From the NCBI GenBank assembly GCA_035527835.1, contig DATKZS010000208.1:1-10663 (forward strand): a stretch of 10,663 nucleotides of DNA, given 5' to 3'. Each line of letters starts with the position of its first letter. The first letter of the stretch is position 1. This stretch comes from DATKZS01 sp035527835 [NCBI: bacterium]. GTDB taxonomy: Bacteria; RBG-13-61-14. Made by a program: the position numbers and the translations under genes. The notes beneath the pieces are model-generated. The model did no database searches. It saw only the letters and a list, made by a program, of their open reading frames with translations, and was not told the origin of the DNA. Shown here one piece after another: positions 1,670-10,412 of the stretch.

Positions 1670-2206
1670 ATGGCAAAGGAAGGCTCAGTAGCTCCCAAGG
1701 AACGGGTGAATATTGTTTACAAGCCCGCCACCGGCGACGCCCAGGCCGAGGTCGAGCTTCCGCTCAAGGTCCTGGTGATGGGCGATTTTACCATGAAGCA
1801 GAACGACACCCCGGTGGAAGGCCGCAAGCCGATCAACATTGACAAGGACAATTTCAGCGACGTGATGAAGGCCCAGAACCTGAACCTGGACGTGAGCGTG
1901 GCGGACAAGCTCTCCGATGACCCGAAGGCCAAGATGAACGCCTCGCTCAAGTTCCGGAGCCTGTCGGACTTCAACCCGGACTCGGTCGTGGCGCAGGTGC
2001 CCGAGCTGAAGAAGATGATCGAGATGCGCGACGCGCTCAAGGCGCTGAAGGGCCCGCTGGGCAACGTGCCGGCGTTCCAGAAGAAGTTGAAGGAGCTGGT
2101 CACGGACGAGGGGACCCGCGAGCGCCTGCTCAAGGAGTTGGGCCTCGGCAAGGGCGAGGCCGGCAAGGGCGGGGCCGGCAAGGGCGAGGAAGGAGGGAGT
2201 AAGTAA
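1670..2206 (+). CDS. tssB: T6SS contractile sheath small subunit TssB (VipA)
   Basis: The 178-residue protein is a TssB/VipA-family sheath subunit that pairs with TssC to build the cytoplasmic contractile sheath around the Hcp tube. The family core is visible as RVNIVYKP (about 12-19), the beta strand LPLKVLVMGDF (about 33-43), the INIDKDNF and LNLDVSVADKL segments, and LKFRSLSDFNPDSVVAQVPEL, which is typical of VipA. The last 19 residues (160-178) are an unusual Gly/Lys-rich tail made of GKGEA, GKGGA and GKGEE units, encoded by a 15-base tandem repeat. The start ATG has a near-perfect AAGGAGG at 1658-1664, 5 bases upstream. The stop overlaps the tssC start by one base (TAATG), so translation of the two sheath subunits is probably coupled. 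Confidence 0.96.
   Translation: MAKEGSVAPKERVNIVYKPATGDAQAEVELPLKVLVMGDFTMKQNDTPVEGRKPINIDKDNFSDVMKAQNLNLDVSVADKLSDDPKAKMNASLKFRSLSDFNPDSVVAQVPELKKMIEMRDALKALKGPLGNVPAFQKKLKELVTDEGTRERLLKELGLGKGEAGKGGAGKGEEGGSK
2147..2191 (+). repeat. three tandem 15-bp units at the 3' end of tssB
   Basis: Three in-frame copies of a 15-base unit beginning GGCAAGGGCG lie at 2147-2161, 2162-2176 and 2177-2191. They differ only in the last few bases of each unit and encode GKGEA, GKGGA and GKGEE. The unit length is a multiple of three, so copy-number slippage would lengthen or shorten the TssB tail without breaking the frame. The third copy runs directly into the AGGAGGGAG ribosome binding site of tssC. Confidence 0.85.
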
Positions 2207-3687
2207 TGGCTGAAGAGGAAAAACAAAAAGCGGCGCAGGAGGCGCAAACGCAGGAGACTTCCCTGGTTGACGACATCATTGCGATGACCAAGGTGAAGCC
2301 CACCGACGAGGCCTACTCCATGACCAAGGCGGGGCTCACCGCCTTTGTCAACCAGATCACGGCGAAGGGCAAGGTGGAGGCCCGGTTCACCCAGGCCGAG
2401 GTGGACGCCATGATCTCGGAGATTGACAAGAAGCTCTCCAAGCAGGTGGACGAGATCCTGCACAACGCCGACGTGCAGAAGCTGGAGAGCGCGTGGCGCT
2501 CGCTCAAGTACCTGGTGGACAAGACCGACTTCCGGGAGAACGTCAAGATCGAGCTCTTGAGCGCGACCAAGCAGGAGCTGCTCGACGATTTCGAGGACGC
2601 GCCGGAGATTTCCAAGGCCGGGCTGTACCGCACGGCCTATACCGCGGAGTTCGGCCAGTTCGGGGGCCAGCCCTACGGCGTCATGGTCGGCAACTACGAG
2701 TTCGGGCCGGGCGCCCAGGACATCAAGCTCCTGCAGAACGTGGCCAGCGTCGCCGCCATGAACCACGCGCCGTTCATCTCGGCGGCGTCGCCGCAGTTCT
2801 TCGGGGTCGAGCACTTCTCGGAGCTTCCGGCCTTGAAGGACCTGAAGAGCATCTTCGAGATGCCGCAGTACACGAAGTGGCAGAGCTTCCGCGAGTCGGA
2901 GGACGCGCGCAACGTGGGTCTCACGCTGCCGCGCTTCATGCTCCGCGTGCCTTACGGCTCGGAGAGCGTCCCGGTGAAGAGCTTCGAGTACACGGAAGAC
3001 GTTTCCGGCGGCGACGACAAGTTCTTGTGGGGCAACTCGGCGTTCGCGTTCGCGTCCCGGATCACCGACAGCTTCGCCAAGTACCGCTGGTGCGCCAACA
3101 TCATCGGTCCGCAGGGCGGGGGCGCGGTGGAGGACCTGCCGGTTTACAAGTATGAATCCATGGGCGAGATCCAGACCAAGATCCCGACCGAGGTCATGGT
3201 CTCGGACCGGCGCGAATTCGAGCTGGCGGAGGAGGGCTTTATCGCGCTGACCATGCGCAAGGGCTCGGACAACGCCGCGTTCTTCTCGGCCAACTCGGTG
3301 CAGAAGCCCAAGAAGTTCGGGTCCACCAAGGAGGGCAAGGAGGCCGAGATGAACTACCGGCTCGGCACTCAGCTCCCCTACATGTTCGTGATCGCGCGGC
3401 TGGCGCATTACATCAAGGTGATCCAGCGCGAGAACATCGGGACCTGGAAGGAGAAGGCGGACCTGGAGCGCGAGCTCAACACCTGGATCCGCCAGTACGT
3501 GGCCGACCAGGACAACCCGGCGCCCGGCGTGCGCAGCCGGCGGCCGCTCCGGCAGGCGCAGATCGAGGTCTCGGACGTGGAAGGCGCGCCCGGCTGGTAC
3601 CGGGTGGGCGTCAAGGTCAAGCCGCACTTCAAGTATATGGGGGCCTCCTTCACCTTGTCCCTGGTGGGCAAGCTGGAGAAGGACTGA
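2206..3687 (+). CDS. tssC: T6SS contractile sheath large subunit TssC (VipB)
   Basis: The 493-residue protein is a full-length TssC/VipB sheath subunit, normal for the family (about 490-500). After a polar N-terminus, the conserved core includes LLDDFEDAPEISKAGLYR, YGVMVGNYEFGPG, LPRFMLRVPYG, FLWGNSAFAFASRITDSF, the Gly-rich IIGPQGGGAVEDLP and TEVMVSDRREFELAEEGFI. The C-terminal gp18-like part has NYRLGTQLPYMFVIARLAHYIKV and ends FTLSLVGKL. TssC assembles with TssB as a heterodimer. The N-terminal region normally contributes the ClpV-recycled or linker elements, though which residues do so here cannot be read directly. The start is fixed by the one-base overlap with tssB and by GGAGGGAG at about 2192-2199. 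hcp follows after 31 bases with its own strong ribosome binding site. Confidence 0.97.
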   Translation: MAEEEKQKAAQEAQTQETSLVDDIIAMTKVKPTDEAYSMTKAGLTAFVNQITAKGKVEARFTQAEVDAMISEIDKKLSKQVDEILHNADVQKLESAWRSLKYLVDKTDFRENVKIELLSATKQELLDDFEDAPEISKAGLYRTAYTAEFGQFGGQPYGVMVGNYEFGPGAQDIKLLQNVASVAAMNHAPFISAASPQFFGVEHFSELPALKDLKSIFEMPQYTKWQSFRESEDARNVGLTLPRFMLRVPYGSESVPVKSFEYTEDVSGGDDKFLWGNSAFAFASRITDSFAKYRWCANIIGPQGGGAVEDLPVYKYESMGEIQTKIPTEVMVSDRREFELAEEGFIALTMRKGSDNAAFFSANSVQKPKKFGSTKEGKEAEMNYRLGTQLPYMFVIARLAHYIKVIQRENIGTWKEKADLERELNTWIRQYVADQDNPAPGVRSRRPLRQAQIEVSDVEGAPGWYRVGVKVKPHFKYMGASFTLSLVGKLEKD

Positions 3688-3718
3688 CAATTATCAGGAA
3701 AAGAGGGAGGATAGTATC

Positions 3719-4204
3719 ATGGCAATGCCGTCTCATTTGTCTCTGACCGGAAAGACCCAGGGAAAGATCGAAGGCTCCTGCGACATCGCGGGAAGGGAAG
3801 GGACCGTGCTGGTTTACTCGATGGAGCACCTCATCAACATCCCGCGCGACACCCACACCGGCCTGCCCACCGGCAAGCGCATCCACGGCTCCTTGAAGAT
3901 CGTCAAGGAGATTGACAAGGCCTCGCCCAAGCTGTTCCAGGCGCTGTGCAGCGGCGAGCAGTTCTCCGAGGTCCTGCTCGACTACTACCGGATCAGCCCG
4001 GCGGGGGCGGAGGAAAAGTATTACACCATCAAGCTCCAGAACGCGATCATCGTGGACGTGCGGGCCTGGTTCCCGGAGACCCTGGTCAAGTCCAATGAGC
4101 CGTTCAAGCACATGGAAGACATCTCCTTCTCCTATGAGAAGATCATCTGGACCTGGGTGCCCGACGGCATCGAGGCCGAGGACTCATGGAGTGCGCCCAA
4201 ATAA
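3719..4204 (+). CDS. hcp: T6SS tube protein Hcp (TssD)
   Basis: The 161-residue protein has the length and motifs of Hcp, which forms hexameric rings that stack into the T6SS inner tube and is itself secreted. Family landmarks are the opening HLSLTGKTQGKIEGSC, VYSMEHLINIPRDTHTGLPTGKRIHGSL (the Hcp loop and strand region, about 31-58), LSP-type LFQALCSGEQF, YYTIKLQNAIIVDVRAWFP and the closing HMEDISFSYEKIIWTW. There is no C-terminal effector extension and no signal peptide, so it is a structural Hcp. The ATG follows GAGGGAGG at 3703-3710 with 8 bases between, a strong site that fits high expression. Immediately downstream is a very stable hairpin block (4218-4277) that could protect the hcp mRNA end or reduce expression of the baseplate genes. 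Confidence 0.97.
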   Translation: MAMPSHLSLTGKTQGKIEGSCDIAGREGTVLVYSMEHLINIPRDTHTGLPTGKRIHGSLKIVKEIDKASPKLFQALCSGEQFSEVLLDYYRISPAGAEEKYYTIKLQNAIIVDVRAWFPETLVKSNEPFKHMEDISFSYEKIIWTWVPDGIEAEDSWSAPK

Positions 4205-4217
4205 GATGACGAGCGGC

Positions 4218-4277
4218 GCCGGGCCCGGAAGCGCTTCCGGGCCCGGCCGGCCCCGTGCCGGGGCCTGGGCCCGGGCC
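4218..4277 (+). promoter_or_regulatory. GC palindrome block after hcp (attenuator or mRNA-stabilising hairpins)
   Basis: Three palindromes lie side by side. The first (4218-4247) is a perfect 30-base inverted repeat whose left arm is GCCGGGCCCGGAAGC, 15 of 15 paired, with no unpaired loop. The second pairs 4249-4255 with 4259-4265, 7 bp around a 3-base loop. The third is the self-complementary GGCCCGGGCC at 4268-4277. No T tract follows, so it is not a canonical intrinsic terminator. Its place, 13 bases after the hcp stop and about 40 bases before tssE, suggests partial termination, blocking of 3' exonucleases, or a protein or RNA signal separating abundant Hcp from scarce baseplate proteins. 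The role is inferred. Confidence 0.6.
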
Positions 4278-4315
4278 GGACGGCGGATGCAAAACAGCGG
4301 AAAGCGGTGGCTCTA

Positions 4316-4741
4316 ATGCGGGAAGAGAGGCTCTTGGAGAGGATCGCGCGAGTCAGCGGCGAGCGCCACCGGGGCGCCGTCCGCGACGAGGAGCTCGTGC
4401 TCGCCTCCATCATTTCCTATCTCAATAAAATCTTGAACACCAGGAAGGGCAGCGTGCTCATGGACCCGGAATTCGGCGTGCCCGATTATTCCGGAATGGC
4501 CAGCCGCTTCTCCACCGCCGTCAACGAGACCCTGGACGACATCGAGACGTCCGTCCGCGACGCCGTCACCAGGTATGAGCCCCGGCTCGCGTCCCCCAAA
4601 ATCAAGTTCCTGGACAAGGAAGAATTCGAGCTGTCGCTCTTTCTCGAGCTCGAAGCCACGGTGAAGACCGGGCCCGAGCCGATCCCGGTCACGCTCAAGA
4701 TCCGGATGAGCCCAAACGGAAGTATCGTGGTCGGAAGGTGA
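4316..4741 (+). CDS. tssE: T6SS baseplate protein TssE (gp25-like)
   Basis: The 141-residue protein is TssE, the T4 gp25-like baseplate component that links TssF/TssG/TssK to the first sheath ring. It shows the family's N-terminal RLLERIARV, the central ISYLNKILNTRKGSVLMDPE followed by FGVPD (the NTR-G-YG-PD signature, about 34-57), a VRDAV..YEPRL segment (about 80-91) and a C-terminal strand with VTLKIRMSPNG. I chose ATG 4316, which has AGCGGTGG-like purine-rich sequence 5 bases upstream. An in-frame GTG at 4307 would add only three residues and is also possible. The preceding gap carries the GC hairpin block. Normally tssF follows closely, but here about 2.96 kb of foreign-looking DNA separates them; the reading frame of tssE is complete. 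Confidence 0.94.
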   Translation: MREERLLERIARVSGERHRGAVRDEELVLASIISYLNKILNTRKGSVLMDPEFGVPDYSGMASRFSTAVNETLDDIETSVRDAVTRYEPRLASPKIKFLDKEEFELSLFLELEATVKTGPEPIPVTLKIRMSPNGSIVVGR

Positions 4742-4889
4742 GGGTTCATCGTGGAAAGCAAAGGTGGAATTTTAACAAGAATGCACAGTATATTAAGAAT
4801 AATAATATTTCACGCAATTATGCACCAGACAAGGCAATGGTCGTAACGCATTGAAAATAAAAAGTGCATATTGGGAGCAATTAAACCAG

Positions 4890-4997
4890 ATGTGTGGCTT
4901 TTCGGGTAAGATTGAAGGCCGTCTAGTAGCAAACCAGGCATGGTGGGAAAATGCCATGTATTCATGGATTGAGGGTGATGACCATGCAATACAGTAG
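4890..4997 (+). CDS. possible small ORF upstream of the methylase-nuclease (35 codons, or remnant)
   Basis: An open frame running from 4806 to TAG 4995-4997 encodes a protein-like, tryptophan-rich peptide. Candidate starts are ATG 4890 (35 aa, with a weak GGAG at 4874-4877) and TTG 4851 (48 aa, no clear ribosome site). Segments such as SAYWEQLNQM and NQAWWENAMYSWIEGDD look like real protein, not random AT-rich translation. It overlaps the preferred start of the next gene by 14 bases, an arrangement common in translationally coupled pairs. I do not recognise a family and see no helix-turn-helix. It may be a genuine micro-protein or the 3' remnant of a gene cut off when the island inserted. Confidence 0.28.
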   Translation: MCGFSGKIEGRLVANQAWWENAMYSWIEGDDHAIQ

Positions 4998-7572
4998 CCT
5001 TTTCAAATTGCAGGGTATGAATCTGAAATCCGAAGCTCAGGTTGAAACGCGCCTTCTCGCACCTCTATTCCATGATCTTGGCTATCCACCAGAGGCAGTG
5101 ATTCCCAAGAAGAACCTAAAGCCGCTCATAATAAGCGATGGGACTAGGAGCAGATCTAAAGAGGTGGATTTCTTGTTGTTGAGGCCGAGCAAGTCTGCCC
5201 GCATGGTCGTCGAAGCAAAAGACCCCCAAGAAGACCTCTTCAAACATTGGGGACAGGCCGCAAGCTACGCACTTAGTTATAATCGAGATAAACAAGACGA
5301 AGAACGTATTAAATTTCTTCTCCTGAGCAACGGCCATCTCACCTGTCTATTCAAACATGATAGTGATACACCTATCGTGACCTTGAAACTCTCCGATTTT
5401 TCCAGCGGATCGCCACCTTATGTATCTTTGCGTAGTTATATCAAGTACCGAACCTCTACAGATGTCGTTTCCCAAGGGATACTCCCCTTCGAGCCTATCG
5501 CACCAGATCAATTGAACAAGTTGTTTCAAGAGGCGCATGATTATGTTTGGAAAAAGGAGAAGCTGCATCCAGTCGATGCGTTTTTTGAGTTCTGCAAATT
5601 CATGTTCCTGAAAATCCGAGAGGATAGGAAGAGGGAAACCGAGCCATACAAGCTTCCGATGACGCTTGCATGGCTTAACGCCCAAGAAAAAACTTCTTCT
5701 CATCCAATACGCGACATACTTTTTCGCCGGCTCCGAGATGATTTGGAAGAGAGCATAAAACGGGAGCACAAGAAACGCATCTTCGATCCCGATGAATCAC
5801 TTAAACTGACGGCGGGGACTTGTAAGGAATTGGTTCTGCGCTTTGAGCAGATCAATCTGACTTCCATAGATGAAGACCTAAATGGTCGAATGTTCGAGGT
5901 CTTCTTAAATGCAGCCGTCCGGGGCAGAGCCTTAGGTCAGTACTTCACCCCTCGTTCCGTTGTCGATTTTATGACCCGAATTGGTCTCTATGGTGCGGAT
6001 ATAATTAAGCCGCCCAGAATCGTAGATGCCTGCTGTGGGACGGGTGGATTCTTGATTGAGGCGATGGCCTATCTACTTTCAAGCCTGAGAAACGACACGC
6101 GGCTTAACGATGAGGACCGGGAAAACCAACGAAAAAAAATATGTAATGAGATGCTGTACGGCGTTGATGCCAACGAGCGCGTTGCAAGGATCGCTCGCAT
6201 CAATATGTATTTGCACGGCGACGGTGGAAGCCATATATTTTACGCGGATGGGCTGGATTCTGAATCCGAGATAACTGATGATATGACAGATGAAAGAAAG
6301 GATGAGGTAAGGGATTACCTTGCAAATGTAGGAACGGAAGACGACGGGATCGGCTTTGACTTAGTTCTGACGAACCCCCCTTTCAGTATGATTTATTCAA
6401 AACAAAAAGAGGATGAGGAGCGGATATTGAATCAGCGCCCGATAACTAAAAATAGCGGGTCTGCGAAATCCAACATCTTATTTTTAGACAGGTATAAAGA
6501 GATTCTAAAGGCAGGAGGTGAGATGTTGATCGTCCTCGACGATACAGTTCTCAATGGAAGTACCTGTCAGGCAGTCCGTGATTGGATTGTGGACAATTTC
6601 GTTGTGCTTGGCGTCCACTCTCTCCCATTCAATACGTTCTTCAAAGCCGAAGCAAACATCAAGACCTCTATTCTCCACCTTCGTAGGAAGAGAAACAAAA
6701 ATGACAAACAGGGCCATGTCTTCATGTCAATTAGTAATAATGTTGGCCACGATAATGCCCTTAACGATACCCCTGACAGAAACAACCTGCTCGATATTAT
6801 CGCCGCCTACTTTGAGTGGAAGAGGACTGGACGATTGGCAATAGTAATTAAGCCTAATCAAAACAAGAGCGAGAATTTGGAATGTTCAGAGCAGATTTGG
6901 CTTGTGCCTCCCGATCACTTTAGAAAAGAGCGCATCGACGCTTTCGGATACGCGCCGGAACTTGCACGTGTGCATAAAGAGATTGCCAGCCTTGAAAAGA
7001 AGGGTATAGTGAAGTCTATTCTTGGAAAGCAATTTGAATTGGTCAAGAAAGTTTCCAAGGAGTATAAGAAAGAACGCAAAAAGTCTGATGATCCCGTCAG
7101 GTACATTGAAATCAGTGATGTAACTAAATATGGATTGATCGTGACAAGCCTTTATGCGCCGTTTGGTGAACTGCCGACTAGGGCTGAATATGAAATTCAC
7201 AAGGGCGATGTATTAGTAGCTATAAATAATAGTTCCAGAGGCACCGTAGTTCTTGTTCCCGATGAATTTGATGGAGCTTTTTGCACATCGGGCTTCTTGG
7301 TTATCCGCCCAAAATCAGAAGAGGAGGGTCGTCTCCTCTGGTACTCATTGAGGAGCGAATACGCGAGAAAACAGATTTACTATCTCGCTCAGACGGCTAG
7401 TCAGCCGGAGCTGAAAATTGGTTCTTGGAAGAATAAATTCGTAGTTCCGATTCCCATAGGGGTTTCCGCCAAGAAGGCAATAAGGGAATCAAAGGAATTC
7501 CAAGAGCACCTAAAATCATTGATAAACGCGGATCATTACTCTCTCGATTCATTAATCGTAAATAATATTTGA
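4984..7572 (+). CDS. single-chain restriction-modification enzyme: PD-(D/E)XK nuclease, N6-adenine methylase, target-recognition domain (type IIG-like)
   Basis: The 862-residue protein joins three modules. The N-terminal HSDR_N-like nuclease (about 15-150) shows EVDF with D62, then E77-A-K79 and Q91xxxY95, the PD-(D/E)XK plus QxxxY pattern. The central HsdM-like gamma-class N6-adenine methylase (about 295-600) has GQYFTP (318-323), SAM-binding motif I DACCGTGGF (348-356) and catalytic NPPF (464-467). The C-terminus (about 640-862) resembles one HsdS target-recognition domain: a charged helical linker, YIEISDVT at 707, then GDVLVAINN. No SF2 helicase motifs are present, so it is not HsdR. Predicted role: methylate adenine in one target site and cut unmodified DNA. 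ATG 4984 is preferred because GAGGG (4971-4975) lies 8 bases upstream; ATG 4978 and 4951 are in frame. Key residues look intact. Type IIG is inferred; target unknown. Confidence 0.85.
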   Translation: MQYSSLFKLQGMNLKSEAQVETRLLAPLFHDLGYPPEAVIPKKNLKPLIISDGTRSRSKEVDFLLLRPSKSARMVVEAKDPQEDLFKHWGQAASYALSYNRDKQDEERIKFLLLSNGHLTCLFKHDSDTPIVTLKLSDFSSGSPPYVSLRSYIKYRTSTDVVSQGILPFEPIAPDQLNKLFQEAHDYVWKKEKLHPVDAFFEFCKFMFLKIREDRKRETEPYKLPMTLAWLNAQEKTSSHPIRDILFRRLRDDLEESIKREHKKRIFDPDESLKLTAGTCKELVLRFEQINLTSIDEDLNGRMFEVFLNAAVRGRALGQYFTPRSVVDFMTRIGLYGADIIKPPRIVDACCGTGGFLIEAMAYLLSSLRNDTRLNDEDRENQRKKICNEMLYGVDANERVARIARINMYLHGDGGSHIFYADGLDSESEITDDMTDERKDEVRDYLANVGTEDDGIGFDLVLTNPPFSMIYSKQKEDEERILNQRPITKNSGSAKSNILFLDRYKEILKAGGEMLIVLDDTVLNGSTCQAVRDWIVDNFVVLGVHSLPFNTFFKAEANIKTSILHLRRKRNKNDKQGHVFMSISNNVGHDNALNDTPDRNNLLDIIAAYFEWKRTGRLAIVIKPNQNKSENLECSEQIWLVPPDHFRKERIDAFGYAPELARVHKEIASLEKKGIVKSILGKQFELVKKVSKEYKKERKKSDDPVRYIEISDVTKYGLIVTSLYAPFGELPTRAEYEIHKGDVLVAINNSSRGTVVLVPDEFDGAFCTSGFLVIRPKSEEEGRLLWYSLRSEYARKQIYYLAQTASQPELKIGSWKNKFVVPIPIGVSAKKAIRESKEFQEHLKSLINADHYSLDSLIVNNI

Positions 7573-7619
7573 TGGCGATGATACAGAGTAATAATTTGAA
7601 ACATTCATGGGGATTGAAC

Positions 7620-7712
7620 ATGAGTTGCGGAAAAAGCGCGAAGGCAATGCTTTTTCAAGCAGCGCCAAAGTTCGATAATGGAATAGCCCACGGGGAAAGG
7701 CCACATGTTTAA
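7620..7712 (+). CDS. possible 30-codon micro-ORF overlapping the tssF start
   Basis: ATG 7620 is preceded by GGGGA at 7609-7613 (6 bases away) and opens a 30-residue frame beginning MSCGKSAKAML. It ends at TAA 7710-7712, overlapping the tssF ATG at 7705 by 8 bases. Such an overlap could couple translation of tssF to a leader peptide, restoring expression downstream of the inserted gene. The peptide has no recognisable family, and a frame this short can occur by chance. The hairpin at 7630-7656 lies inside it. Weak call. Confidence 0.18.
   Translation: MSCGKSAKAMLFQAAPKFDNGIAHGERPHV
7630..7656 (+). terminator. hairpin between the methylase-nuclease and tssF
   Basis: GAAAAAGC at 7630-7637 pairs perfectly with GCTTTTTC at 7649-7656 around an 11-base loop. 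The stem is A/T-rich and its own 3' arm contains the five T residues, so it is only terminator-like. It lies 58 bases after the stop of the inserted gene. It might end part of the island transcript, or simply be a folded leader for tssF. Confidence 0.3.
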
Positions 7713-9438
7713 CCGTTATTTTCAGCAGGAGATCGCCAATCTCCGGGACCTGGCGGCCGAGTTCGCCAAGGCCCATCCCGCGCTGGCCCCGATGCTGGAG
7801 GGGCCATCCGCGGACCCCGACGTCGAGCGCCTGCTCGAAGGCGTCGCGTTCCTCACCGGGCTGTTGCGCGAGAAGCTCGACGACGAGTTCCCGGAGATCG
7901 TGCAGGGGCTGATGCAGCTCGTGTTTCCGCATTACTTAAGGCCCATACCCGCCGCCACCATCGTGGCGTTCAGCCCGAAGCCGAACCTGAAGCAGTCGTA
8001 CAAGGTGCCGGCGGGCGTGAAGCTCGGCTCGGCGCCCATCGAGGGGACCTCGTGCACCTTTCAGACCTGTTACGAGGTCGAGGCGCACCCGCTCAAGATC
8101 AAGGCCGCCTTCTTTGACCAGCTTCCGGGCCAGCCGCCCCTGATCACGCTGGTCTTCAAGCTCACGGGAATGGACCTCACCCGCTGGTCCCCGCAAAGCC
8201 TGCGTCTGCACCTGGCCAAGGACTACCCCGAGGCCGCCAACATCTATTTCCTCCTGATGCGATACTTGAACCAGGTCACCCTGGCCCCGGTCGAGAGCGG
8301 GGCCAGCTGCGTGCTCGACCCCAGCCACGTGACGCCCGCCGGCTTCGCGGACAACGAGGGCATGCTCCCCTACCAGTCCCACGCCTATCCCGGATACAGG
8401 ATCATCCAGGAGTACTTCATGCTCCCGCACAAGTTCCTGTTCGTGGACGTGAACGGCTTCGAGAAATGGCAGAACCGCGGGGCCGGCTCCGAGTTCAAGA
8501 TCATCTTCGAGCTCAAGGATATGCCCTTCCCGCCGCCCAAGATCACCGGCGACAACTTCGTGCTCTTCGCCACCCCCGCGGTCAACGTCTTCGACCACGA
8601 CGCCGACCCCATCAGCCTGGACCACCACCGCAACGAGTACCGGGTCCGCCCCTCCGGGTCCAACAAGTCCCACTACCAGGTTTATTCCGTGGACAAGGTC
8701 CAGGGCTACCGGCAGGGGTCGGTCAAGGCCCGCGAGTACGAGCCGTTCGAGATGTTCCAGCCCGAGACCCGCGACCGGCCCATTTACCACGTGTCCTTCA
8801 AGCGCTCCGCCGTCGGCAACGCCATTGACGCCCTGCTCTCGTTCACTTATCCGGACAAGGGCGAGGTCCCGGCGCCCGAGACCCTTTCCATCAACGTCAC
8901 CTGCACCAACGGCGAGCTCGCGGAGCGGCTCCAGGTCGGCGACCTCAACCAGCCCACCCCGACCTCGCCCGAGCTCCTGGAGTTTAGAAACATCCGGCCG
9001 CCAACCGCCAGCGTGCTCCCGCCCCTGGGCAGCACCCTGCTGTGGCGCTTCCTCTCCCTCTACTCCCTGAACTACCTCTCCCTGGCCCACGCCGACAACA
9101 TCAAGGCCCTGCTCAAGCTCTACATCTTCCCGGAGAGCCGCGACCAGGCCGCGACCTACGCCAACACCCGCCGGGTGGACGGCATTGACGCCATCGAGGT
9201 GAGGAGGGAAAACCGCCTGGTCACCGGGTACATGATGCGCGGACAGGAAATCATACTCAAGGCCAAGTCCGACCATTTCGCCAGCGACGGGGACCTGTAC
9301 ATTTTCGGCTCCGTGCTGGACGCGTTCCTGGGATGCTATGCCAGCATCAACAGCTTCACCAATTTCCGGATCGAGGAAGTCTTGAAAGGAGACACCCACC
9401 GATGGCCGGCGAGGATCGGAGACCGCCCCCTGATCTAA
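7705..9438 (+). CDS. tssF: T6SS baseplate protein TssF
   Basis: The 577-residue protein is TssF, which with TssG forms the wedge of the T6SS baseplate and recruits TssE, TssK and VgrG. The N-terminal signature is clear: FNRYFQQEIANLRDLAAEFA then KAHP (to 25), DPDVERLLEG (37-46), FLTGLLREKLDDEFPEI and FPHYLRPIP (74-82). Later segments typical of the family include GYRIIQEYFMLPHKFLFVDV, the SLDHHRNEYRVRP stretch with YQVYSVDKV, and the C-terminal LWRFLSLYSLNYLSL with GTE-type FGSVLDAFLGCYASINSFT. The length is normal. GGGGAAAGG at 7692-7700 provides the ribosome site. GC content and codon use return to those of tssA-tssE, so the gene belongs to the ancestral operon although the inserted island separates it from tssE. 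Its 3' end overlaps tssG by 37 bases. Confidence 0.96.
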   Translation: MFNRYFQQEIANLRDLAAEFAKAHPALAPMLEGPSADPDVERLLEGVAFLTGLLREKLDDEFPEIVQGLMQLVFPHYLRPIPAATIVAFSPKPNLKQSYKVPAGVKLGSAPIEGTSCTFQTCYEVEAHPLKIKAAFFDQLPGQPPLITLVFKLTGMDLTRWSPQSLRLHLAKDYPEAANIYFLLMRYLNQVTLAPVESGASCVLDPSHVTPAGFADNEGMLPYQSHAYPGYRIIQEYFMLPHKFLFVDVNGFEKWQNRGAGSEFKIIFELKDMPFPPPKITGDNFVLFATPAVNVFDHDADPISLDHHRNEYRVRPSGSNKSHYQVYSVDKVQGYRQGSVKAREYEPFEMFQPETRDRPIYHVSFKRSAVGNAIDALLSFTYPDKGEVPAPETLSINVTCTNGELAERLQVGDLNQPTPTSPELLEFRNIRPPTASVLPPLGSTLLWRFLSLYSLNYLSLAHADNIKALLKLYIFPESRDQAATYANTRRVDGIDAIEVRRENRLVTGYMMRGQEIILKAKSDHFASDGDLYIFGSVLDAFLGCYASINSFTNFRIEEVLKGDTHRWPARIGDRPLI

Positions 9439-10412
9439 AAGCGGAGCTGTTGGGGGACGGCAAGTCGTTCGCCTTCTTCCAGGCCATCCGTCTGCTCCGC
9501 TATTACATCAGCCGGGACAAGGGACTGGGCAAGGACAAGGACCCGATCCGGAGCGAGGTCCGGATCAGGCCCGAGCTCTCGCTGGCCCATCCGGCAGTGG
9601 AGGTGGAAGAGGTGAGGGCGCTGGACACCGAGCAGCCCTCGTACCGCATGACCGCCAATTTCCTCGGACTCTACGGCGAGTCCACCCCGCTGCCCACCTT
9701 TTACTCCGAGGACCTGATCTACGATTCCCAGGAGGGAGAATCGGCGGTCCGGGATTTTTACGACATCATCAATTACCCGGTGTACTTGTTGTTTTACCGG
9801 ATCTGGACCAAGTACCGCCCGTTTCTCAAGGTGATTGACGAGAAAGACCCGCAGTACCTGGAAATCCTGTTTTCCATGATGGGCCTGGGGGTGGAGAAGA
9901 TCAGGGAGGACGTGAGCAGCGCCGCCCAGCTCCTTAAATACATCGGCCTGCTGAGCCAGTTCCCGAAATCGGCGCTCGGCTTGAAGACCCTGCTCACCGA
10001 CGTGATCGAGGAGCCGAGCATCCGGATCGAGCCCTGCGTTAAAAGGACGGTGGCGATCCCGGAGGACCAGCGCTGCCGGCTGGGGAAGGTCGGCAACGTG
10101 CTCGGCCTGGAATGCTTCGTCGGCCAGGTCATGGAAGACCGCATGGGCAAGTTCCGCGTCATCATCGGCCCGCTCTCCGCTCCCCGCTTCCGGCTGCTCA
10201 TGCCCGGCACCTTCAAGTTCCGGCGCATTCTCTTTTTCGCCGCGATCTACCTTATTGACTCTTTCGACATGGACCTGGAGCTGATCCTGAGCGAGGGCGA
10301 GGTCAGGACCGCCCGGCTGGGCGACGAGTTCTGGTCGCAACTGGGCAAGGACACCTGGCTGTTCTCCGGGGATTACGGGCGCCAGGTCCGCGCCGGGTTC
10401 GAGCTCAATTAG
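9402..10412 (+). CDS. tssG: T6SS baseplate protein TssG
   Basis: The 336-residue protein is TssG, the partner of TssF in the baseplate wedge. Family landmarks are SFAFFQAIRLLRYY (22-35), VRIRPELSLAHP (53-64), MTANFLGLYGESTPLPTFY (83-101) and the DFYDIINYPVYLLFYRIWTK segment (118-137). Many TssG proteins have a DFLDIFNHR-like version of that last motif; here His-Arg is replaced by Tyr-Pro, a lineage difference or a local divergence. The C-terminal half has the usual GNVLGLECFVGQ and FRVIIGPL strands. I chose ATG 9402 because AAAGGAG at 9385-9391 lies 10 bases upstream. An earlier in-frame ATG at 9333 would bury 106 bases in tssF without a ribosome site. The overlap with tssF implies coupled translation. 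The stop at 10410-10412 ends the visible operon. Confidence 0.94.
   Translation: MAGEDRRPPPDLKAELLGDGKSFAFFQAIRLLRYYISRDKGLGKDKDPIRSEVRIRPELSLAHPAVEVEEVRALDTEQPSYRMTANFLGLYGESTPLPTFYSEDLIYDSQEGESAVRDFYDIINYPVYLLFYRIWTKYRPFLKVIDEKDPQYLEILFSMMGLGVEKIREDVSSAAQLLKYIGLLSQFPKSALGLKTLLTDVIEEPSIRIEPCVKRTVAIPEDQRCRLGKVGNVLGLECFVGQVMEDRMGKFRVIIGPLSAPRFRLLMPGTFKFRRILFFAAIYLIDSFDMDLELILSEGEVRTARLGDEFWSQLGKDTWLFSGDYGRQVRAGFELN

Follow-up and report, generated by a model that had tools for sequence, protein, structure and literature searches.

A restriction-modification (R-M) gene lying inside a type VI secretion system (T6SS) core operon raises the question of how it arrived there and whether its position reflects a function shared with the secretion system or simple tolerance. 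Such a gene stands between tssE and tssF in contig DATKZS010000208.1 (assembly GCA_035527835.1) of the bacterium DATKZS01 sp035527835 (GTDB lineage RBG-13-61-14); the whole stretch analysed, 10,663 nucleotides long, is referred to here as the window. Very probably, the insert is a self-contained R-M gene that was horizontally acquired, occupies a normally short tssE-tssF spacer between two open, full-length neighbours, and is carried as tolerated cargo.

The tssE-tssF insert and the junction in other genomes

The end of tssE (4307-4741, + strand; TIGR03357 above cut-off) and the start of tssF (7705-9438, + strand; TIGR03359 above cut-off) are separated by 2963 bp, compared with a median of 40 bp in 99 other tssE-tssF pairs, and this stretch contains one large + strand open reading frame (ORF), in agreement with the insertion reported in the preliminary description. 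Both flanking genes are intact, as was also reported: residues 7-139 of TssE align to positions 2-130 of a 133-position profile, and TssF covers its profile completely (1-600 of 600). The lower GC content noted for the insert is likewise borne out. The inserted gene has a GC content of 0.450 and a GC content at third codon positions (GC3) of 0.489 (0.45 and 0.488 counted from position 4984), against 0.595-0.669 and 0.841-0.939 in the seven T6SS genes, and its codon use is moved towards A/T-ending codons (18 amino acids tabulated). Composition breaks, placed by a two-segment likelihood with fixed GC values, fall at 4744 and 7724, corresponding to the tssE stop and a point just past the tssF start. 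The leader between tssE and the inserted gene (4742-4983, + strand; GC 0.397 over 4742-4950) and the spacer between that gene and tssF (7573-7704, + strand; GC 0.455) are part of the foreign stretch.

The inserted gene itself (4984-7572, + strand) is predicted from domains, motifs and model comparison to be a single-chain, Type IIG-like R-M gene with a product of 862 aa. Its reading frame is open from 4951, and three observations favour the ATG at 4984 as the start: in tblastn, L107 and L108, the two closest relatives, align only from residue 12 of the longer frame onwards; the L108 ORF opens at the matching position (the L107 ORF opens five codons before it); and GAGGGTGAT lies just upstream. 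At the far border, the last bases of the spacer, GGGGAAAGG, may by eye be the tssF ribosome-binding site. The folds of the tail strand (z -1.32) and the leader RNA (z 0.05) are both unremarkable. The leader also contains a 63-codon open frame (4806-4997 with stop, + strand), the end of which overlaps the start of the restriction gene. It is possibly the remnant of a lost upstream gene, but it has no Pfam match and one chance-level plasmid match (E = 1); among the fetched loci it has weak matches only (best E 0.064, L018), with none in L107 or L108.

The usual state of this junction was determined from other TssF loci. A TssF scan of genome contigs returned 19 loci at 43-58% identity, with titles naming Desulfobacterales, Desulfobacteraceae, Desulfobulbaceae, Deltaproteobacteria and Proteobacteria, and further, partly overlapping searches covered the orders of G005 (85 genomes), G002 (194) and G406 (17) and the phylum of G001 (395). 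The loci from these searches, together with 47 further fetched regions, contain 107 distinct tssF starts: 99 with tssE upstream and no other tssF between (the window itself is outside this number), six without tssE in view and two second copies. Left out of the insertion count were L013, L142 and L152, which have no tssE in the 5.9-10 kb upstream of tssF, and L006, L072 and L146, where the upstream stretch is short; about a dozen weak or fragmentary TssF matches were also left out of the survey (e.g. G439, G481, G495, G497, G505, G539, G573, G578, G622, G627 and G637).

The window arrangement is far from typical. The gap exceeds 300 bp in seven of the 99 pairs and 700 bp in two; the mid-size gaps measure 322-491 bp (L016, L067, L073 and L122) and 650 bp (L054, with short ORFs only). 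A restriction gene like that of the window occurs in 0/99 pairs, with 97 gaps below 700 bp and other genes in the remaining two. One of these (L120) is a 1.6 kb gap encoding a 315-aa signal-peptide-like protein (4818-5765 of that locus) with no family above cut-off. The other (L162 6433-12336, the same DNA as L119) spans 5.9 kb with a GC content of 0.366, against 0.496 in its tssE and 0.507 in its tssF, and comprises a tandem array in which a ~105-aa protein is encoded four times and a ~230-aa signal-peptide-like protein five times; the array might serve its T6SS in an immunity-like or accessory role. No match above cut-off was obtained for the ten ORFs of the two gaps in Pfam (seven of ten scanned) or NCBIfam (all ten), and PADLOC, run on all ten, gave two weak matches, JAB (13.7 bits) and PbeC (13.4 bits), which are at chance level and taken as such. 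The proposal that the gap is a landing site for defence genes is not upheld by these loci, given that only 2/99 gaps carry large cargo and neither contains a defence family above cut-off. A close relative with an empty site was not found; the best full-length TssF identity in any searched genome is 59%, with short fragments reaching 67% (residues 1-156, G045) and 79% (residues 1-66, G439). In two loci (L062, G124:C3:359-2065; L063, G248:C26:204512-206221), a second tssF-like stretch was observed ~2.8-3.0 kb downstream of tssE, within a ~940-aa frame.

Anatomy of the enzyme and its relation to known systems

By its anatomy, the insert encodes a predicted single-chain Type IIG-like enzyme with one recognition domain. 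Residues are numbered here on the 862-aa protein unless the longer frame (from 4951) is named. The N-terminal region (residues 11-156; 5014-5451, + strand) is an HsdR-like nuclease domain of the PD-(D/E)XK type according to alignments and a match to the HsdR fragment 3h1t. It is followed by an N6-adenine methyltransferase domain (residues 297-622; 5872-6849, + strand), assigned through PF02384 (N6_Mtase, 4.1e-35) and motifs, with additional Pfam matches to Eco57I (1.2e-12) and UPF0020 (7.7e-06). The single target-recognition domain (TRD; residues 664-838; 6973-7497, + strand) is recognized by a match to the S subunit 5ybb_D and by phmmer matches to S subunits at residues 716-836 of the longer frame. 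The best PADLOC matches of the protein are Type I and Type II methyltransferases.

The gene is complete and lies in the operon's orientation, as first described, with the catalytic motifs of both activities present in its + strand, 862-aa frame. The nuclease residues D62, E77-A-K79, Q91 and Y95 are found, along with methyltransferase motif I (DACCGTGGF, 348-356) and NPPF (464-467); D62, K79, Y95 and all four NPPF residues are invariant in an alignment of six family members, and E77 and Q91 are common to the window protein, L107 and L108. Among PDB sequences, RM.BsaXI scored best (6.1e-24), matching residues 183-586 of the longer frame. Cutting by BsaXI is reported to need E73, D90, E105 and K107, and mutation of the D90-E105-x-K107 motif to inactivate the enzyme (PMC11997821); the corresponding D62-E77-x-K79 of the window protein has the same D-to-E spacing of 15. 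An AlphaFold2 model built from six sequences also ranked BsaXI first in Foldseek. In VIA-align, the model aligned with the S subunit 5ybb_D (Z 12.7, root-mean-square deviation (rmsd) 2.8, 160 residues aligned), M.TaqI (1aqj_B; Z 12.3, rmsd 4.5, 308 aligned), the HsdR fragment 3h1t (Z 10.0, rmsd 4.1, 115 aligned) and, across residues 6-851, DrdV (7lo5_A; Z 10.4, 462 aligned, with a loose rmsd of 11.9).

Among known systems, Type IIG enzymes such as DrdV and HaeIV offer the closest parallel. The window enzyme combines an N-terminal nuclease motif, a gamma-class methyltransferase with motif I and NPPF, and a recognition domain in the same chain, and thus shares with them the order of nuclease, gamma-class adenine methyltransferase and recognition domain; its nuclease, however, is HsdR-like and its sequence only distantly related. 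HaeIV and DrdV have one recognition domain, which for HaeIV fits a review's remark on a probable homodimer. That review characterizes Type IIG enzymes as gamma-methyltransferases whose cleavage domain is N-terminal, and states that HaeIV, probably acting as a homodimer, cuts to either side of a symmetric site (PMC3874165). The Type IIB enzyme RM.BsaXI, the best PDB and Foldseek match with equal spacing of the nuclease motif, acts with a separate S subunit, whereas the window enzyme has one fused TRD with no S gene after it. An RM-plus-S system of the BsaXI/BcgI type with adjacent genes was rejected for this reason, the next gene being tssF, 132 bp on, although a distant S gene may lie elsewhere in the genome. 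Part by part, the enzyme resembles HsdR (nuclease), HsdM (methyltransferase) and HsdS (TRD), but a Type I R-M system was also rejected, as there is one gene instead of separate R, M and S genes and no helicase/translocase domain was found by Pfam. Two further candidates fell far below their curated cut-offs, namely the MADS methyltransferase MAD2 (NF047738; 186.4 bits against 720) and BREX PglX (17.5-24.6 bits against 500-900).

Relatives of the enzyme and the arrival of the insert

The closest relatives found are both on viral-collection contigs: L107 (62% identical in the alignment) and L108 (60%). They were obtained by scanning viral contigs with an alignment query, which recovered six loci; the protein alone gave no match, and rescanning with the close alignment recovered just L107 and L108. 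In L107, the gene directly upstream is integrase-like, matching Phage_int_SAM_5 and Arm-DNA-bind_5 but not the catalytic domain, and the L108 locus encodes a Phage_integrase protein and a Mob_Pre relaxase. More distant members are 37% (L110) and 33% (L109 and L112) identical to the window enzyme. L110 appears by eye to hold a split relative (3579-6952), with one gene for nuclease and methyltransferase and, after it, a separate ORF whose duplicated halves resemble recognition domains. Among 2231 plasmid records with a match, only two align over 80% or more of the query (31-33% identity); these are Gordonia and Aeromicrobium plasmids typed as mobilizable. On two actinobacterial plasmids (L105 6674-7147 and L106 6677-7198) and in L112 (4938-5480), the gene directly after the enzyme relative encodes a 157-180-aa product; these products look similar by eye and are absent from the window. 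In phage records, 91 had a match to the enzyme and none covered 80% of the query.

Relatives are more remote in the genomes sampled for the T6SS. In the phylum of G001, to which T6SS relatives belong, 214 of 395 genomes have some match to the enzyme; among the matches listed, all but one start at residue 169 or later, i.e. without the nuclease, and the sole exception (L074), 40% identical over residues 24-391 and running off the end of its locus, is a fragment and the best relative. In the genomes of the first TssF loci, 4/18 have an enzyme match, the best at 31%. Foreign composition and the proximity of the closest relatives to integrase and relaxase genes make the insert look like horizontally acquired cargo. 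The preliminary description had suggested a recent acquisition: its horizontal part is supported by composition and by where the closest relatives lie, with no tree built, while 'recent' is not settled, the nearest full-length TssF being only 59% identical.

The insert itself contains no transposase or integrase gene; its only large ORF is the restriction gene, and Pfam gave no match for the frames in leader and tail. No convincing repeats of at least 12 bases were found at both ends (shorter ones were not tested), the regions 4641-4860 and 7561-7800 have no 12-base word in common, and a 9-base near match (8/9) seen by eye near the ends may be chance. There is no Rfam match or tRNA in the window, and hence no tRNA-type integration site. 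One possibility is that recombination replaced the spacer.

The surrounding genes are those of a T6SS core operon, all on the + strand in the order tssA-tssB-tssC-hcp-tssE-insert-tssF-tssG, which apart from the insert is shared, in gene order and family membership, with the T6SS core operon tssA-B-C-hcp-tssE-F-G. In addition to tssE and tssF, they comprise tssA (69-1586; TIGR03362, equivalog), tssB for the small sheath subunit (1670-2206; TIGR03358), tssC for the large sheath subunit (2206-3687; TIGR03355), hcp/tssD (3719-4204; TIGR03344) and tssG (9333-10412; TIGR03347), the start of which is tentative and lies within an overlap with tssF. All seven proteins pass their curated NCBIfam cut-offs, and no other T6SS genes were seen within the window. 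No terminator-like match occurs in 4742-4983 or 7573-7704. Promoter-like matches on the + strand lie at 4772-4800 and 7652-7679, and region totals are modestly above those of shuffled sequences (promoter-like 9 vs 5.2; terminator-like 6 vs 3.4). Given the lack of a terminator-like match in leader and tail and the modest promoter excess, read-through from tssE to tssF is possible, and co-transcription of the insert with the operon would be consistent with its strand.

Tolerated cargo or a link to contact-dependent killing

If the enzyme works as its anatomy implies, it would bind its target through the single recognition domain, methylate adenine at that target on host DNA, and cut incoming DNA that lacks this methylation, at a fixed distance and probably acting as a dimer, in the manner described for single-chain Type IIG enzymes. 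Since cutting, marking and recognition reside in one chain, the gene can land alone and still work, and it need not silence tssFG because it follows the operon's direction and has no terminator-like match at either junction. Its position in the operon would accordingly be that of tolerated cargo, not of a shared mechanism. Several observations weigh against this reading. HSDR_N_2 in the window protein scores below the Pfam cut-off (21.1 bits vs 25), which is passed by L107 (27.2) and just missed by L108 (24.3). The enzyme model is middling (mean predicted local distance difference test score (pLDDT) 64.9), with higher confidence in the nuclease and recognition domains and the lowest in the methyltransferase core; much of residues 295-476 lies under 50. 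The relatives' genes have GC contents of 0.33 (L107) and 0.31 (L108) against 0.45 in the inserted gene, and so do not point to its donor. There is no trace of how the insert moved, be it transposase, integrase or convincing end repeat, and with no close relative carrying an empty site, insertion is deduced from distant relatives and composition.

An assembly chimera, in which the restriction gene of another organism was joined into the operon, would explain the sharp difference in composition. It is nevertheless very improbable, as it needs two independent joins at the tssE stop and the tssF start, where the two borders share no 12-base word and repeats within 4400-8000 are short, and as tssE and tssF are alike in composition and stand in the gene order of relatives. 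Greater weight attaches to the idea that the tssE-tssF junction serves this T6SS lineage as a general site of cargo insertion, given the cargo of L120 and L119/L162. This too is unlikely: such cargo occurs in only two of 99 pairs, that of the two loci and the window looks unrelated (no common family), and enrichment is not claimable from a survey covering the tssE-tssF gap alone. It is plausible that the gap sometimes tolerates cargo, rarely and with no clear sign of defence function.

A functional explanation would hold that the gene was kept because co-expression pays, with the enzyme degrading DNA from lysed neighbours or protecting the cell during T6SS activity. The insert does lie on the operon strand with no terminator-like match at its junctions, and a report on Pseudomonas describes interbacterial and anti-phage defences as jointly regulated, with a regulator coordinating the response to bacterial and viral threats (PMC11888443). 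That link is regulatory rather than positional, no such gene occurs in the 99 other pairs, and the closest relatives of the enzyme lie near integrase and relaxase genes, not T6SS genes; the explanation is thus improbable. The Pseudomonas report makes a killing link reasonable as speculation and is not support for this locus. A stronger version, in which the gap is a tolerated, co-transcribed cargo slot and the restriction enzyme is wired to T6SS expression and cuts the DNA of killed neighbours on entry, is most improbable, and the functional link to contact-dependent killing put forward in the preliminary description is speculation.

For tolerated, horizontally acquired cargo, it is the site that stands out: the enzyme belongs to a known kind and its position is unusual. 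In the titles and abstract openings retrieved for T6SS with restriction or defence, no restriction gene between tssE and tssF is reported. The locus suggests that restriction enzymes encoded by one gene can spread on their own as cargo, and that a baseplate operon can accommodate 2.9 kb of foreign DNA between genes of interacting products. If the gene does prove to be part of the T6SS transcript, it would directly exemplify the co-expression of DNA defence with a contact-killing weapon, and the idea would become testable.

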